The position numbers and the translations under genes are program-made. From Rhodohalobacter sp. SW132 (GTDB taxonomy: Bacteria > Bacteroidota > Rhodothermia > Balneolales > Balneolaceae), in NCBI RefSeq assembly GCF_003390325.1, contig NZ_QUOK01000015.1, positions 1-64,000 on the forward strand: DNA of 64,000 nucleotides, given 5' to 3'. Every line of letters starts with the position of its first letter. Position 1 is the first letter of the stretch. The notes under the pieces were generated by a model. It did not search any database. It was not told where the DNA came from and saw nothing but the letters and a program-made list of their open reading frames with translations. Positions 52,942 to 59,609 of this stretch are shown here, one piece after another.

Positions 52942-55900
52942 CTATTCTCTTGTGATAATCACGATATGAGAATTGGTATGACCGTAATTCTCTATAAGTA
53001 TATTCTGAAGCTTCAGGGCACTTTCAAGATTTGCCTCATTGGGATTCAGGTAGAGCACAAAATCTTCTCCTGGTAACTCTACAATCTCCGGGGAGGTTCT
53101 GCTGAGTGCAGAGAATTGGTTAGCGGCAGCTTTTGCTGAGTCCCGATCCCCATATATTCCGGTATATACCTTGTATTCTGTTTTCATGTACCCGTTTGTG
53201 AAATAAGGTATACTGCTTATCATATAACTATGAAGCGGTATCACAGGATTTAAAATTTGCCGTGCGCTGCTTAGATCAAGTTCATTATATGTAAGATTTG
53301 CATACACAAAATGGAATCCTCTGCTGCTATTATATTCCAGGTAACTTTTAATACCGGTTCGACTTTCTAACGTGTGGATGAATTGTTCTGCATACTGAGG
53401 TGAATTATATGCTCCAAGCTGTATACGTACGGCATCTTCCGTTTGTCGGGGTACATTGCGGCCTCCTGGTTGTCCCATAAAGTGAATACGCAAACTTTGC
53501 AGATGCTCAATTTCATCAATTACGTCTGAAAGTTCCTGTATCTCTAATGGCGTGATAAATTCCTTACTCTGGAGTCTGAAAAGTTGACTATTAGTATCAA
53601 AAAGATCAATAAACTCTATCCCAGCGATCCGAATCAATTCATCCCGGACACGTATCGACTCACTTTGATTAGTGAATTCACCGGTTTCGACAATAAACCC
53701 GTCGATTTCACTGCGAGATAATATTGGAACCATATGTTCAGAAGCATTTTCAGGTTGCAAAATGATTTCGAGTCCTTCGATAAAATCACCCTCAGGTTTT
53801 GCGTATAGCGTGAACCCAGGTGTTTTCTGGGGCATTTGTAACCCTATATATTCAAGCTGTGAAGAATCAACCGCAATGCTATAATCTCCCGGTGGAATTT
53901 CATAGGCGTAGAAACTTCCGTCGGAAAAGGTTCGGATCTCCTGCCGGTGAGGCTCCCTGCCATCTGGCGCATCGATCTGTTCAATCAAAAGTTTTAAACC
54001 GGGAATCCCAGTGCGTTCATAGTTTAGATATCTCAGTACCGATCCATCCACTACGCCGGTCATATATACCGGTATATCGATCGTTTTGAATTGATTGGGA
54101 TCTGAAACAAATGAAAACTGCTCGATACCGGGGATCAGCAACGGATTGTGGATGGATGATTTATTTACCGATACATTGTACTGTCGGTATGGCTGGAGCT
54201 GGCTGATATAATTTATACCGTTTCTTGAAGATATTCTGCCTGTAGCTTGCTCTATCTGGACTGTTCTGTTTTCGGTATATAGCAGTTCATCGCCATTCTC
54301 AAATTGTCCTGAATTGTTGTGATCAAGGAACATTCGTACGGCAACACCTGAGCGCCCAACTTGCTGGCGGTTATCCATAAAGGCATTTCTGTTCCCCGGG
54401 TCCAAACCAATCGAGCCTCGAAAACTCTGCGTGGCAGAATAGTTGCCGCGGGTTGTCCGAGCGGATGAATTCGACCGGAATGCATTAAAATCGATTGTAA
54501 TACTGACCCGTCCATATGTGAAATCCCCAATAAAATTTTTGCCGCCTGTCAGATGAAAACGTCCACTGTTCATCATATTTCGCGAAATCTGCAGCTCACT
54601 ATTTTCGATTTCCTGAAGGTAGGGGATATAGTTAGTCTGGGCTCTCACAAAAACTCCTCTTAGAATCGAAGGCCAGGTGGGTGATCTGCCCATGGTGTAG
54701 GTGATTGCAGCATTTAAACGGGCCGATGGGGTGGTCTCAAAAGCGGGTTGGCCGATTTGGGTATCCCTGTAGCCAAATCGCAGGTTGGTGCGTCCAAGCC
54801 GGCTATTTAAGTCCACTCGGTAGCGGGTAATGGATGTAAGCTCCCGTCTTTCATTCGTATATGCAATACGAATAAACATAGGGAGAGGGCCGGCAGAAAT
54901 CGGGGTAAAGAAATTTGTGCGGATATCTGATCGGTTTCGAGAAGGATTGTAGAGGCCACCCATCCGGGTATAGTGTGTATACTCCGCGGTCAAACTTGCA
55001 GATGAAGGATAGAGCACGCTGAATGATCCCCGGTAGAATGCATCAGATGCAACTTCTGCCGAAAGCAGGTAGTTTGAAAACCAACGGGTAGAGAGCTGAC
55101 CGGAAAATGTGGGCACTGAATCGTGAAAATCTTCAAAATATTCGGCACTGCCCGAAACGGTTATTCGACTTGATAAACCTGCAGATATGGAAGATTGCCC
55201 CATTAGCCCGCGATCAATCGATCCTGAAACAGGGTTGTCGAGTCTGCCCGCCTGCAGTGTGTAATTGACTACTCCGGGAGGAGTGAATGTGAACGGTATT
55301 CTGATTCTGCGATTCTGTTCAATTAACTCGCCGGATGGGGCGTATGAGCGGATACTGTAGCTGGACTTTCCGTACGTTAGCGGCAGCTCAAAATTGTATC
55401 TTCCGGATTGGTCAGCGTTCTGAAAGCCAACCAAAGATTGATTCCGATATAACTCTACTTCAGCATCTGCTTCGGTTGTACCTGATAAGTAGGTGTGACC
55501 ATAAATATGGCGTGGCTCGAGTGGTTCATTACTCAACGAAATTCCGGTGAAGGCAACCGGGTTCAGTCCTCTTGAGTTCGTCTGCCCGATGGTAATAGTG
55601 GTCAGGTACGGGCTTTTACGAATTCCATATCTCCAGCGTAGATTTGAAGAGCGCAGCACACTGGCGGTTTCTGAGTGGAATCCATGGATATTTCCCTGGA
55701 TATCACCTCCAATTACTTCGGCTCCAAACGCCGTATTATAAAGAAAACTGGTGCGTTGAGCTGAGTAATTACCAGAGAGGTTATAATCTAAAAATCCGGC
55801 ATGAAACAGACGTCTGTTCCTGTCGAACTGCAGAGGGTAGTAGGTTCTGTAGAGTTGATTTTGAGACTGTTCAAGCTGACGTCTCCGCTGTTCACGATCT

Positions 55901-56379
55901 CGGCGCGCAATAACCGGAAGATCCATATCAGTATTCAGTGTAAGTGAAAGGGATGAAAAATCCGCACTGAAATGAAGATTAAATATTTGACTGAAAATAT
56001 CTGGGTGAAAATAGATTCCGTCTGGCCGTATGAGTAAATAATTTTTGGGGAAAGTTGAGGATGAATGCTGAAACTCAGCAGTCAAATCATCAATTAAAAT
56101 CCTGTATTCTCCATAATCTGAAAACCGGCCTGAAATCTCATTTTGAGAAGAGTTGTAGTGGTTTTGAATTTCAAGAAGATCAAAAAGCTGACTGGCAGGA
56201 AGATAAAATTCGTTTTGGTGATAAAGTGCGGGGATATAGGTATTAATTACCTGCTGGTGACGAAACTGCAACAGAACTTCACTATTGGTTTCGAATTTTG
56301 CAGATGCAGTTTCTGTAGTAACTAAAAGTACCAATATGGTCAATAGAAGCAAATTCCTATTGAGATAAAAGTACCTCAC
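52942..56379 (-). CDS. Usher-like outer-membrane protein with three C-terminal SPOR-like repeats
   Basis: This 1145-aa protein has a signal peptide to about residue 28. An usher-type N-terminal domain opens VLLQFRHQQVINTYIPALY and then YLPASQLFDLLEI. A plug-like Ig segment (GHTYLSGTTEADAEVELYRN, then SGRYNFELPLTYG) and the TPPGVVNYTLQAGRLDN transition lead into a long run of alternating strands with aromatic ends (~380-700), suited to a beta-barrel. A SRNGI/FLDHNNSGQFENGDELL segment and a C-terminal beta-sandwich (~770-880) follow. Residues ~889-1145 hold three SPOR-like repeats: IDGFIVETGEF (~893), AVRIQLGAYNSP (~983) and YKVYTGIYGDRD (~1069). Ushers export chaperone-bound subunits; SPOR domains bind denuded peptidoglycan. 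The start overlaps the chaperone stop by 4 bp. Confidence 0.8.
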   Translation of the reverse strand: MRYFYLNRNLLLLTILVLLVTTETASAKFETNSEVLLQFRHQQVINTYIPALYHQNEFYLPASQLFDLLEIQNHYNSSQNEISGRFSDYGEYRILIDDLTAEFQHSSSTFPKNYLLIRPDGIYFHPDIFSQIFNLHFSADFSSLSLTLNTDMDLPVIARRDREQRRRQLEQSQNQLYRTYYPLQFDRNRRLFHAGFLDYNLSGNYSAQRTSFLYNTAFGAEVIGGDIQGNIHGFHSETASVLRSSNLRWRYGIRKSPYLTTITIGQTNSRGLNPVAFTGISLSNEPLEPRHIYGHTYLSGTTEADAEVELYRNQSLVGFQNADQSGRYNFELPLTYGKSSYSIRSYAPSGELIEQNRRIRIPFTFTPPGVVNYTLQAGRLDNPVSGSIDRGLMGQSSISAGLSSRITVSGSAEYFEDFHDSVPTFSGQLSTRWFSNYLLSAEVASDAFYRGSFSVLYPSSASLTAEYTHYTRMGGLYNPSRNRSDIRTNFFTPISAGPLPMFIRIAYTNERRELTSITRYRVDLNSRLGRTNLRFGYRDTQIGQPAFETTPSARLNAAITYTMGRSPTWPSILRGVFVRAQTNYIPYLQEIENSELQISRNMMNSGRFHLTGGKNFIGDFTYGRVSITIDFNAFRSNSSARTTRGNYSATQSFRGSIGLDPGNRNAFMDNRQQVGRSGVAVRMFLDHNNSGQFENGDELLYTENRTVQIEQATGRISSRNGINYISQLQPYRQYNVSVNKSSIHNPLLIPGIEQFSFVSDPNQFKTIDIPVYMTGVVDGSVLRYLNYERTGIPGLKLLIEQIDAPDGREPHRQEIRTFSDGSFYAYEIPPGDYSIAVDSSQLEYIGLQMPQKTPGFTLYAKPEGDFIEGLEIILQPENASEHMVPILSRSEIDGFIVETGEFTNQSESIRVRDELIRIAGIEFIDLFDTNSQLFRLQSKEFITPLEIQELSDVIDEIEHLQSLRIHFMGQPGGRNVPRQTEDAVRIQLGAYNSPQYAEQFIHTLESRTGIKSYLEYNSSRGFHFVYANLTYNELDLSSARQILNPVIPLHSYMISSIPYFTNGYMKTEYKVYTGIYGDRDSAKAAANQFSALSRTSPEIVELPGEDFVLYLNPNEANLESALKLQNILIENYGHTNSHIVIITRE

Positions 56380-57203
56380 TTTATAGTGAAGTGCGTTTTC
56401 TCTGAAACTGGAATAGATTGAACCAGATTGCGTGACGGGATATCACTGCGTTCGGAAATAAATTTTGTTTCGATCAAATACTCACCTGCAGGCCAATTTT
56501 CCGTATTAAAAATCGCACGATGATGGTTGTTGAAGTAGACAGACGTAGAACTTTTTCGCTGTTCAACAATTTCACCATCTTCATTACGGATTACGTTTTG
56601 TACGGATCCGATAAATGGTGCGTTCCCGGTTCGGTTGACGTTAGTTAATACCGTTATTTTATCATCACTATTAAGAATTTCTGTACCGTTTATTTGAAGT
56701 CCGGTTGAAGTCGCCCCCTTTCTTGCAAATACAGCCGTCACCTGGTCGATTTGAAATGCAATTTGTGCAGATACCAATGTGTCATCCGTTTCACCAACAG
56801 AAGGAGAGAGCTGGCTTGATGAGACACGCATGCGGGTCCAGTGTACACCGTCCGGTTTATTAATTGGAATCTGACCAATCAGACGAACGGTTTGTCGCTG
56901 GCCGGAATCGAGCATAAACGTAGTTGGAAATGCTCGTATGTAAGGCTTTAAAGAATATCGATCCTCCGAATCTTCATCTATATAATTAAGGGTAACGTTG
57001 CCAAGTGAATCGGTTTGAGGATATGCAAATTCAAATGAAAGCTGAACCTCAACCGGTGTTTCTGAAGGATTTGATACATAAAAAGATCCTACATTGCTTC
57101 CCGGATCCAGAAAAACCGCGGTTGGTGAAATTGTAACCTGCGCAGGTGCCTCTCCGGACTGAAAGAAAAAGAAAATGAGCAGTAAGAAAATGTATTGTTT
57201 CAT
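56376..57203 (-). CDS. PapD-like periplasmic chaperone of a chaperone-usher system
   Basis: This 275-aa secreted protein has a signal peptide ending near PAQ. Domain 1 opens VTISPTAVFLDPGSNVGSFYVSNPS, the usual PapD-like first strands, and includes RQTVRLIGQIP. Domain 2 follows from about 175 (GLQINGTEI ... GNAPFIGSVQNVIRNEDGE) with a final strand into NLVQSIPV. PapD-like chaperones complete the Ig fold of pilus subunits in the periplasm. The canonical PapD Arg8/Lys112 pair is not evident at the start, so it is divergent, closer to archaic or Bacteroidota chaperones. It sits between subunit and usher genes. Confidence 0.82.
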   Translation of the reverse strand: MKQYIFLLLIFFFFQSGEAPAQVTISPTAVFLDPGSNVGSFYVSNPSETPVEVQLSFEFAYPQTDSLGNVTLNYIDEDSEDRYSLKPYIRAFPTTFMLDSGQRQTVRLIGQIPINKPDGVHWTRMRVSSSQLSPSVGETDDTLVSAQIAFQIDQVTAVFARKGATSTGLQINGTEILNSDDKITVLTNVNRTGNAPFIGSVQNVIRNEDGEIVEQRKSSTSVYFNNHHRAIFNTENWPAGEYLIETKFISERSDIPSRNLVQSIPVSEKTHFTIK

Positions 57204-57261
57204 TTGATTCGAAAGCTAAAATCAAGCCGTAGATTCATCTACCTGAATTCACGTGATTGGT

Positions 57262-57816
57262 TTAAAGAGTTGTCAGAGTAAACTCTATTGTCACACTCTG
57301 CCCGCCTGCCTCTGTTGTAGAGTAAGATCCTGAATGTATGGCATCCACGGCTTCAAGCGAACCACCAATGCTCAGAATAATATTTTCGCCGGTGCCGTCT
57401 GCTTCTATTGTATTTCCGGATGTTAAGGTTTCATCATTTGAAGTACTACCGTTTACTGATGTGCCGGAAACAACATATATGGAGGGCACAAATGAGATCG
57501 TATGACTGTTTGATACCGAAGCCAGAATTCCGTTGCCAAAGGTAACACTAAACGCTTCATTTAAGGCATTTTGAATGGAAATCTGAGCTCTTTGCGGAGT
57601 TGTTGCGTTGATATCAGCAGATCCGAGTGGGTTAGAATCCACTACAGCTTGCTGACCGGATTGAATATTTCCAAATTCCACAACGGCAGGGTTTGTAACG
57701 AATTCAAGCGCACTTTCTACAGTGGCTGTTACGTCAATGGTTTCTGTTGCTTCCTGAGCGTAAACTCCATGGGCAAAAAAGAGAGAGAGTAGAGTAAATA
57801 GCGCGATTTTTTTCAT
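57262..57816 (-). CDS. Secreted DUF4402-like fibre subunit
   Basis: This 184-aa protein has a signal peptide (LFTLLSLFFAHGVYAQ). The mature part is a small beta-rich domain: an N-terminal strand TIDVTATVESALEFV, VVEFGNIQSGQQAVVD, and the C-terminal IILSIGGSLEAVDAIHSGSYS...VTIEFTL. This closing IGG..E/D...G.Y...V.I.F is the DUF4402 signature and resembles spore-coat-U/archaic CU subunits. No cysteines are present in the mature part. The ATG at 57814-57816 is preferred over a start at 57855, which would put 13 odd residues before the signal. Fourth subunit gene, just upstream of the chaperone. Confidence 0.78.
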   Translation of the reverse strand: MKKIALFTLLSLFFAHGVYAQEATETIDVTATVESALEFVTNPAVVEFGNIQSGQQAVVDSNPLGSADINATTPQRAQISIQNALNEAFSVTFGNGILASVSNSHTISFVPSIYVVSGTSVNGSTSNDETLTSGNTIEADGTGENIILSIGGSLEAVDAIHSGSYSTTEAGGQSVTIEFTLTTL

Positions 57817-57900
57817 CGTAATTAAGTTTTTTTCGGTAATCGAGTGTAATCTCACATGGCAGGTGTGAAATAACAGGTTTAGTTCCGCCTTCTGTATCAG

Positions 57901-58422
57901 TTATTCGTAATAGATAGTAAGTGTTGCTTTCCCCGTGTACAGTCCCGGCAGTATATCGTCAACATCGATTGATCCACCGATAATAATCCACAGGGCACTC
58001 CAATACTCCTGTTCTCCACTACTGTATTCACGATTTGATAATTCTATCTGTTCTATACCTTCACGTATAGGCTGAGCTGATTCATTGTAGTTCTCCCCAT
58101 CTCTATAAAATGCATTAAGAGATAGATTTATCCTGTTATCGGACGCATTATGGGCGTGCTTAAGAACATTAGAGGATTCTAAAGTTAACAGAATTTGACT
58201 TGCCTGGTATGTATTAATTCTGAATACGCCGGCACGGGAACTATCAAACCCGATATGATGATGGCCCGAATTAGTCTCAATCATTCCAAAATCAAGATGC
58301 TGTTCTACGGTAGCTTCAGATTCAGGCTCAATTTCAATCTGAAAGTTCAAAAACTGTGCTGAACCAGCATTAAAAGCAGCACAATTAAGGAGGATCGAAA
58401 ATGTGAAAACGAGAAATTTCAA
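57901..58422 (-). CDS. Secreted DUF4402-like fibre subunit
   Basis: This 173-aa protein has a signal peptide (to about AGSAQ, residue 23). Its mature start FLNFQIEIEPESEATVEQHLDFGMIE has alternating hydrophobic residues, as needed for a donor strand. The C-terminus IIIGGSIDVDDILPGLYTGKATLTIYY shares the subunit signature. No catalytic motif; a structural role is inferred from context. Confidence 0.72.
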   Translation of the reverse strand: MKFLVFTFSILLNCAAFNAGSAQFLNFQIEIEPESEATVEQHLDFGMIETNSGHHHIGFDSSRAGVFRINTYQASQILLTLESSNVLKHAHNASDNRINLSLNAFYRDGENYNESAQPIREGIEQIELSNREYSSGEQEYWSALWIIIGGSIDVDDILPGLYTGKATLTIYYE

Positions 58423-58434
58423 AGCGTAGGCCTT

Positions 58435-59088
58435 TTACTGGTATTCAATTGTTACGGTGATTGAGCCGGAATAGAAACCTGCAAAAATATTACCCACATC
58501 AATTTCACCATAAAGGAAGATAAACGCTTCACTGTTGACAGACTCCTGGTTGAAATCACCACTTTGTGGAATGGGAGGCGGGCCGGGGAGCTGAAACTCA
58601 CGGGCTTTAATCGGAAAACGGGCGTTCCCAATATTATTTGTTCCCGTTCCGGTTACATGAATATATTCGGCATCCGACACCTGATTGATTCCGCGGTTTG
58701 CATAGCCTGCTTTCATTGTGAATGGAATGCTCCTGAGAGGATCACCGCTGTATGATGGATCACCGTTCAGCAACAGTTCTCCAGTTCCATTGATGTCAAC
58801 CAGAATATCCAGGTAATGAACTCCAATTGCTGAAATAGAAACTGCTTCAGTTAGTGAAATCTCGTACACACCGCCATTTCTGACCACCGCGCCATCAAAC
58901 TGCAGGTCTGAAAGTGTTACATTTTCAAGATGAAGTGTGTAAGTTCCGTATTCACTGAAATTGATCTCCTGCGAAATTCCGTCTGACGGATTCATCATTG
59001 TCATGACGAGTACTCCCAGACTCACCAGAAGCAATTTTAACGAATCAAAAGGTGAACCATTGGTAATATAATGAATAGCTTTAGTCAT
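58435..59088 (-). CDS. Secreted fibre subunit, larger paralogue
   Basis: This 217-aa protein has a leader with a hydrophobic core (LLLVSLGVLVMTM) that starts about 17 residues from the N-terminus, followed by GISQEINFSEYGTYTLHLENV. The C-terminus FIFLYGEIDVGNIFAGFYSGSITVTIEY carries the same closing signature. The extra ~40 residues in the middle include a Pro-rich LPGPPPIP. It might be a specialised (tip or adaptor) subunit, but position alone does not prove it. Start and upstream stop share TGATG. Confidence 0.7.
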   Translation of the reverse strand: MTKAIHYITNGSPFDSLKLLLVSLGVLVMTMMNPSDGISQEINFSEYGTYTLHLENVTLSDLQFDGAVVRNGGVYEISLTEAVSISAIGVHYLDILVDINGTGELLLNGDPSYSGDPLRSIPFTMKAGYANRGINQVSDAEYIHVTGTGTNNIGNARFPIKAREFQLPGPPPIPQSGDFNQESVNSEAFIFLYGEIDVGNIFAGFYSGSITVTIEYQ

Positions 59089-59609
59089 CAGATATATTCA
59101 ATTTCTATGGTAAATTCACCATCATATATACCCGGGGCAGCATTCGACAGATCAACATCACCCCCAATCCAAATAAAAAATTCCCCATCCTCATTAAATT
59201 GAAGTTCCCTTGTGGTTTGCTCCAGAGGTTCAGCCGAGTTTTGGTCGTTTAGGTGATTACCGGCTATGCGGTACCGAAAAGCGATTGAACCTGGACCATC
59301 TGGATTCCTGATTGTGAAGTCCCGGATGTAATTTAGCCTGAATTCACTTCCGGGCAGACCACTGGCAATCATTTTCCCTGCTCTTCCACTTGAAATGGGG
59401 CTAATTCTCAATACAGGATTCTGCCGGTCCAACCCATGAAAATCTAGCGTTTGAATGGTGAGCAGTTCGATAGAATTCTGGAAATTGGCCGAGATATGAA
59501 TAGATATGGATTTAGTTTGGCCGCTTTGAGCTGATACAATCAAAGGAACACATAGAAATACGATCCATAACGGTAACGTGCGACAAACTGTTTTTATAAG
59601 TGAGAACAC
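59088..59609 (-). CDS. Secreted DUF4402-like fibre subunit, first gene of the operon
   Basis: This 173-aa protein has a signal peptide (LWIVFLCVPLIVSAQ). N-terminal strand KSISIHISANFQNSIELL could serve as a donor strand; the end FIWIGGDVDLSNAAPGIYDGEFTIEIEY is the clearest example of the shared IGG.(V/I)D...PG.Y.G..T..I.Y signature in this window. It lies 91 bp after the convergent-looking menE stop on the same strand and is the first subunit gene. Confidence 0.75.
   Translation of the reverse strand: MFSLIKTVCRTLPLWIVFLCVPLIVSAQSGQTKSISIHISANFQNSIELLTIQTLDFHGLDRQNPVLRISPISSGRAGKMIASGLPGSEFRLNYIRDFTIRNPDGPGSIAFRYRIAGNHLNDQNSAEPLEQTTRELQFNEDGEFFIWIGGDVDLSNAAPGIYDGEFTIEIEYI

Follow-up and report, generated by a model that had tools for sequence, protein, structure and literature searches.

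A putative wall-anchored, non-classical chaperone-usher fibre operon in Rhodohalobacter and its motor-linked relatives

Chaperone-usher assembly is the textbook way of building a fibre without an external energy source, and it has been described mostly from Proteobacteria. Do Balneolaceae possess such a system? The question is raised by six genes on the minus strand at positions 52942-59609 of contig NZ_QUOK01000015.1 of Rhodohalobacter sp. SW132, within the stretch of 64,000 nucleotides analysed here (the window). A reading made from the DNA alone (the sequence-only reading) had described them as a packed operon of secreted subunits, a PapD-like chaperone and an usher-like barrel, with a gene order parallel to that of archaic (Csu-type) systems. 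All six open reading frames (ORFs) were confirmed and are transcribed in the order subunits 1 to 4, chaperone, usher, with overlaps of 1 and 4 nt and gaps of 12, 45 and 58 nt. With a probability of about 0.8, we read this locus as a divergent non-classical (archaic/alternative-like), wall-anchored chaperone-usher fibre system of Balneolaceae.

Structural comparison of the 1145-aa product of the last gene retrieved ushers. The best 19 Foldseek matches of its model in the PDB were all FimD or PapC (1.3e-19 to 1.8e-9), and unrelated barrels started at rank 20 with LptD (2.5e-6). Profile alignment by hhalign with five ushers of E. coli K-12 covered nearly the full length, plug domain included (probability P 97.5, E 6e-12), whereas the controls LptD and FhuA reached P values of 0.3 and 0.1. 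The usher-like barrel proposed earlier was thus recovered by structure prediction, and the protein is modelled as an usher with a plugged beta-barrel and periplasmic N- and C-terminal domains. Residues 670 to 880, approximately, show weak similarity to GEVED, CarboxypepD_reg and SdrD_B.

The preceding gene encodes a 275-aa protein predicted to be a two-immunoglobulin-domain (two-Ig) PapD-like chaperone. Its AlphaFold2 model, with a predicted local distance difference test score (pLDDT) of 84.7, matched CfaA, SafB, EcpB, YadV, CsuC and PapD at 1e-8 to 1e-6, as expected from the sequence-only reading. The superfamily proline is found as the invariant Pro93. Concerning the residues that anchor the subunit carboxylate, the classical Arg8/Lys112 pair of FimC is not kept, the aligned positions being Ala and Thr. 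Arg124, on the other hand, is invariant in 23 homologues and aligns with Arg89 of EcpB, although the EcpB profile alignment is weak (P 3.9). In CsuC and EcpB this arginine, on strand F of domain D1, is a super-conserved non-classical carboxylate anchor (PMC4654587). The conserved F1-strand arginine supports the suggested likeness to archaic systems. Tyr223 is also nearly invariant among the homologues, and its alignment to the Tyr/Arg carboxylate anchors of domain D2 is loose.

In three of the four subunits of the window the C-terminus follows the classical pilin motif, with Gly at -14 and an aromatic residue at -2. Counting from the chaperone gene, 84 of 109 genes at places -2 to -4 have the motif, as compared to 14 of 330 background ORFs. 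The signal peptides of the subunits show no lipobox, and N-terminal donor-like strands can be seen in the proteins, both as judged by eye. DUF4402 had been assigned earlier to the fourth gene; the similarity is present there, yet it lies below the cut-off and is shared by subunits 1 and 3 (E 0.004-0.045). The position of the signal peptide indicates that the true start of subunit 4 is probably an internal ATG near 57816.

The arrangement is conserved in the family. Among named relatives, Rhodohalobacter halophilus and Balneolaceae metagenome genomes come nearest, and the isolate R. halophilus JZ3C29 has the SPOR-tailed form described below. The usher was present in 42 of 58 Balneolaceae genomes. 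Since the order of four subunits, chaperone and usher repeats in many loci across Balneolaceae genera, and the 4-nt overlap between chaperone and usher genes is kept in 31 of 59 loci, the arrangement is not due to chance. Usher-chaperone pairs that are more distantly related were also seen in other families of the phylum. Three genes for pseudopilin-like small membrane proteins (PilV-, PilW- and PilX-like by eye, one with DUF4900) precede subunit 1 in L041, L052, L054 and other loci; the trio was seen in several genera, and the window operon lacks it.

The end of the usher bears a feature that the sequence-only reading, otherwise supported in its interpretation, had missed. PF05036 (SPOR) matched this tail with 27.1 bits, over its cut-off of 21, and three beta-alpha-beta-beta-alpha-beta units were modelled at residues 894-968, 983-1055 and 1066-1144. 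SPOR was matched in 19 of 25 aligned usher homologues, that is, in all the tail-bearing members without a motor. Of the remaining six, judged by tail length and neighbourhood, four are TPR-tailed ushers of the motor type and two have no tail. On the tree of SPOR tails, that of the window is the most divergent (3.74). SPOR domains bind peptidoglycan that lacks stem peptides, and because of this we infer that the usher is tethered to the wall. No account of a SPOR-bearing usher, or of a motor-linked one, turned up in the collection of literature that we searched.

From these components a pathway can be proposed. Once exported by Sec, the four subunits would be capped by the PapD-like chaperone in the periplasm and passed to the plugged usher barrel in the outer membrane, to polymerise into a surface fibre by donor-strand exchange. 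The periplasmic SPOR array would tie the usher to peptidoglycan, so that the base of the fibre would be anchored to the wall, probably at denuded glycan strands of the septum or young poles.

Several observations weigh against this reading. The confidence of the usher model is low (pLDDT 56). The sequence-only reading had proposed a check of both assembly proteins by profile search, and both failed it: PF00577 (Usher) had no match in the genome of the window, and PF00345 gave the chaperone 17.9 bits where 23 are needed. Neither protein was recognised by Pfam or NCBIfam at curated cut-offs, and no usher was retrieved from the PDB sequences by phmmer or by profile search. In the phylum, PF00577 exceeded its cut-off in 0 of 297 genomes, with three sub-threshold matches, all to ushers of the present kind. 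In the structural search the chaperone came closest to WxLIP of the Gram-positive Enterococcus faecium (8e-10), so that its fold is, by itself, not exclusive to pilus chaperones. Tested singly, SPOR unit 3 scored 17.6 bits, below the Pfam cut-off, and unit 1 was unmatched. The strict C-terminal motif was present in only 12 of 50 genes adjoining the chaperone, the place of subunit 4. Finally, as the earlier reading had observed, no tip-adhesin gene follows the usher, the next gene being the convergent pdhC. Apart from these points, the WxLIP match hints that WxL systems and pilus chaperones may be related.

The absence of a tip adhesin, together with the presence of several small subunits, would also suit the export of the subunits into an amorphous coat or matrix with no defined pilus; chaperone-usher systems do build some coats. 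We regard such a coat as rather unlikely, for four conserved, distinct subunits in a fixed order suggest an ordered fibre.

A different alternative comes from sister loci, likewise missing from the sequence-only reading. In 13 Balneolaceae loci the usher is followed by a FliF/FliG fusion, a TPR lipoprotein, MotA and a MotB with SPOR, with gaps mostly below 50 nt. Ushers of this type have about 1000 aa, and a TPR tail of about 120 aa, which resembles the adjacent TPR lipoprotein, replaces SPOR. The fusion of L053 matched FliG_M, FliG_C and FliG_N over the cut-off and YscJ_FliF_C weakly; the other domains identified were MotA_ExbB, MotB_plug with OmpA, and, in MotB, OmpA and SPOR. Equivalents of MotB Asp32 and of MotA Pro173 and Pro222 are retained in all motor loci; most of them also have FliG Arg281 and, near 289, an acidic residue. 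The order-level relatives L103 and L104 have the motor set too, the MotB of L104 without SPOR. That these are plain flagellar genes was rejected for most loci: no gene for the flagellar export protein FlhA was found in 8 of the 13 motor genomes, and FliF and FliG are fused there, as opposed to the separate FliG in the genome of the window.

Two further clusters deserve mention. In L070, from the genus of the window, a TPR-tailed usher precedes a FliF-only fragment (224 aa, YscJ_FliF_C 2.2e-4) and a TPR lipoprotein; FliG, MotA and MotB are missing, which possibly represents a reduced motor, and the genome (G039) is 74% complete. Loci L133-L144 have no usher and contain a flagellum-like motor cluster: FliF/FliG fusion, a secreted protein of 357-419 aa, TPR lipoprotein, MotA and MotB. 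By eye, the secreted protein has a CsgG/FlgO-like start and a barrel-like end; that of L133 had no Pfam match.

Each family locus contains one SPOR set, located on the usher if the motor is absent and on MotB if it is present, and the tail/motor state switches at least six times along the usher-core tree. All 13 MotB tails fall into one group (support 99), the usher SPOR tails group apart from them, and the latter are mostly closer to each other than to the MotB tails of sister genomes. Repeated simple deletion of motor genes, fusing the usher to the MotB tail, was rejected because it disagrees with these tail similarities and with the MotB-tail group. An exchange of 3' modules, or a single transfer of the tail, would fit better.

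Family f12, which belongs to the same class, has distant ushers beside ExbB-like (PF01618, 7.7e-12) and ExbD-like genes; the ExbD match was just over the cut-off in L118 (1.4e-5) and below it in L122. An extra gene without Pfam match occupies the TonB position, and some f12 loci have a chaperone-like domain within a protein of 1000-1300 aa. Taken together, the sister loci and the f12 loci point to more than one joining of ushers to ion motors in this lineage.

The operon of the window could be one form of a class in which an ion-driven motor acts on the usher or on the fibre; in the window this motor would have been lost, be dispensable or be supplied from elsewhere, for instance by the flagellar MotAB. 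The motor sets of the sister and f12 loci, their retained key residues, the lack of FlhA in eight motor genomes and the single SPOR-array carrier per locus all favour it. For the window we consider it improbable, as the coupling is read from gene neighbourhood only, and the separate grouping of usher and MotB tails indicates that the tail of the window is no recent remnant of a motor. Moreover, no motor of the sister type was found in its genome, which has only the flagellar FliG/MotAB set; on this account the window is best read as a wall-anchored fibre. The flagellar set (FlhA, FliG, MotA and MotB) lies at G000 C1:361578-389000 (L151).

A wider proposal would embrace both forms: an energised class of chaperone-usher systems, in which the coupling of ushers to ion-driven motors, for fibre export or rotation, arose at least twice, with the SPOR-tailed usher as the form seen in the window. 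In Balneolaceae and a related family the motor would consist of a FliF/FliG rotor and a MotAB stator; in another family it would be ExbB/ExbD, along with the protein at the TonB position. We advance this class tentatively, at somewhat less than even odds. A decaying relic without present function is scarcely credible: the usher of the window has a long branch (0.83) and no other SPOR tail is as divergent as its own, but the six frames are open and the signal peptides, motif residues and overlaps are retained.

The features of the locus are collected in Table 1. The gene menE lies 91 nt upstream of the operon, and pdhC 244 nt downstream.

Table 1. Features of the operon in the window and the motor-linked usher loci compared with it (aa, amino acids)
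Feature	Position	Strand	Remarks
Subunit 1	59088..59609	-	173 aa; DUF4402 sub-threshold, 18.3 bits; conserved operon place; C-terminal motif
Subunit 1, termini			signal peptide ends ...VSA, before Q; C-terminus GIYDGEFTIEIEYI, Gly at -14, Tyr at -2
Subunit 2	58435..59088	-	217 aa; Gly -14, Tyr -2; conserved place and homology
Subunit 3	57901..58422	-	173 aa; Gly -14, Tyr -2; DUF4402 sub-threshold; conserved place
Subunit 4	57262..57855	-	197 aa from the called GTG start; DUF4402-like; strict C-terminal motif absent
PapD-like periplasmic chaperone (predicted)	56376..57203	-	275 aa; non-classical type; invariant Pro93 and Arg124
Usher (predicted)	52942..56379	-	1145 aa; Foldseek FimD/PapC, hhalign, family conservation
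Usher periplasmic N-terminal domain	55930..56277	-	~aa 35-150; model secondary structure, pLDDT ~75 mostly
Usher plug domain	55270-55527	-	~aa 285-370; aligned with FimD plug
Usher beta-barrel	54400..55800	-	~aa 194-660; model, Foldseek
Usher C-terminal periplasmic beta domains	53740..54372	-	~aa 670-880; boundaries inferred
SPOR array, usher end	52948..53700	-	~aa 894-1144; PF05036, model secondary structure
Motor loci			L044, L047, L049, L052, L053, L062, L066, L146-L150, L152 (13 family genomes)
f12 usher loci			L118, L122, L164-L171

The non-classical version of Balneolaceae, widely conserved and with an usher that would be anchored to the wall, widens both the range and the anatomy of chaperone-usher systems. 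The sister loci, with their MotB anchor, rotor and stator, raise the question of whether an ion motor could drive or turn a chaperone-usher fibre; their gene neighbourhoods suggest that in this group the assembly of the fibre, or its movement, could be powered. A paper on the evolution of MotAB (PMC12505986) mentions neither ushers nor SPOR.

How does the locus compare with known systems? With type 1 and P pili (FimCD and PapDC) it shares the usher and chaperone folds and the Gly-14/Tyr-2 C-terminus of the subunits, whereas its chaperone lacks the Arg8/Lys112 carboxylate anchors and its usher has additional periplasmic SPOR domains. The type V pili of Bacteroidia are built from lipoprotein subunits with neither chaperone nor usher, unlike the present system, which has both and, by eye, no lipobox. 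Enterococcal WxLIP, the best match of the chaperone, is Gram-positive and usher-less and probably reflects a common two-Ig chaperone-like fold. The likeness to the MotAB/FliF/FliG and ExbBD motors concerns the sister and f12 usher operons, not that of the window, and sister motor genomes differ from those with a flagellar motor in mostly lacking the flagellar export gate. The closest parallels are Csu of Acinetobacter, Ecp of E. coli and CFA/I, which have in common with the Balneolaceae locus the order of subunits, chaperone and usher and the plugged usher barrel. They also share a two-Ig chaperone with the F1-strand arginine (Arg89 in CsuC and EcpB, Arg124 here) and without the Arg8/Lys112 pair (PMC4654587). 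Nevertheless, identity to the archaic and alternative systems is about 12%, below the Pfam cut-offs, the usher is extended by its SPOR array, and the two-domain tip adhesin that follows the usher in Csu-type systems has no counterpart at the Balneolaceae locus. Archaic systems have been reported from Proteobacteria, Cyanobacteria and Deinococcus-Thermus (PMC4654587), whereas the present one belongs to Balneolaceae.

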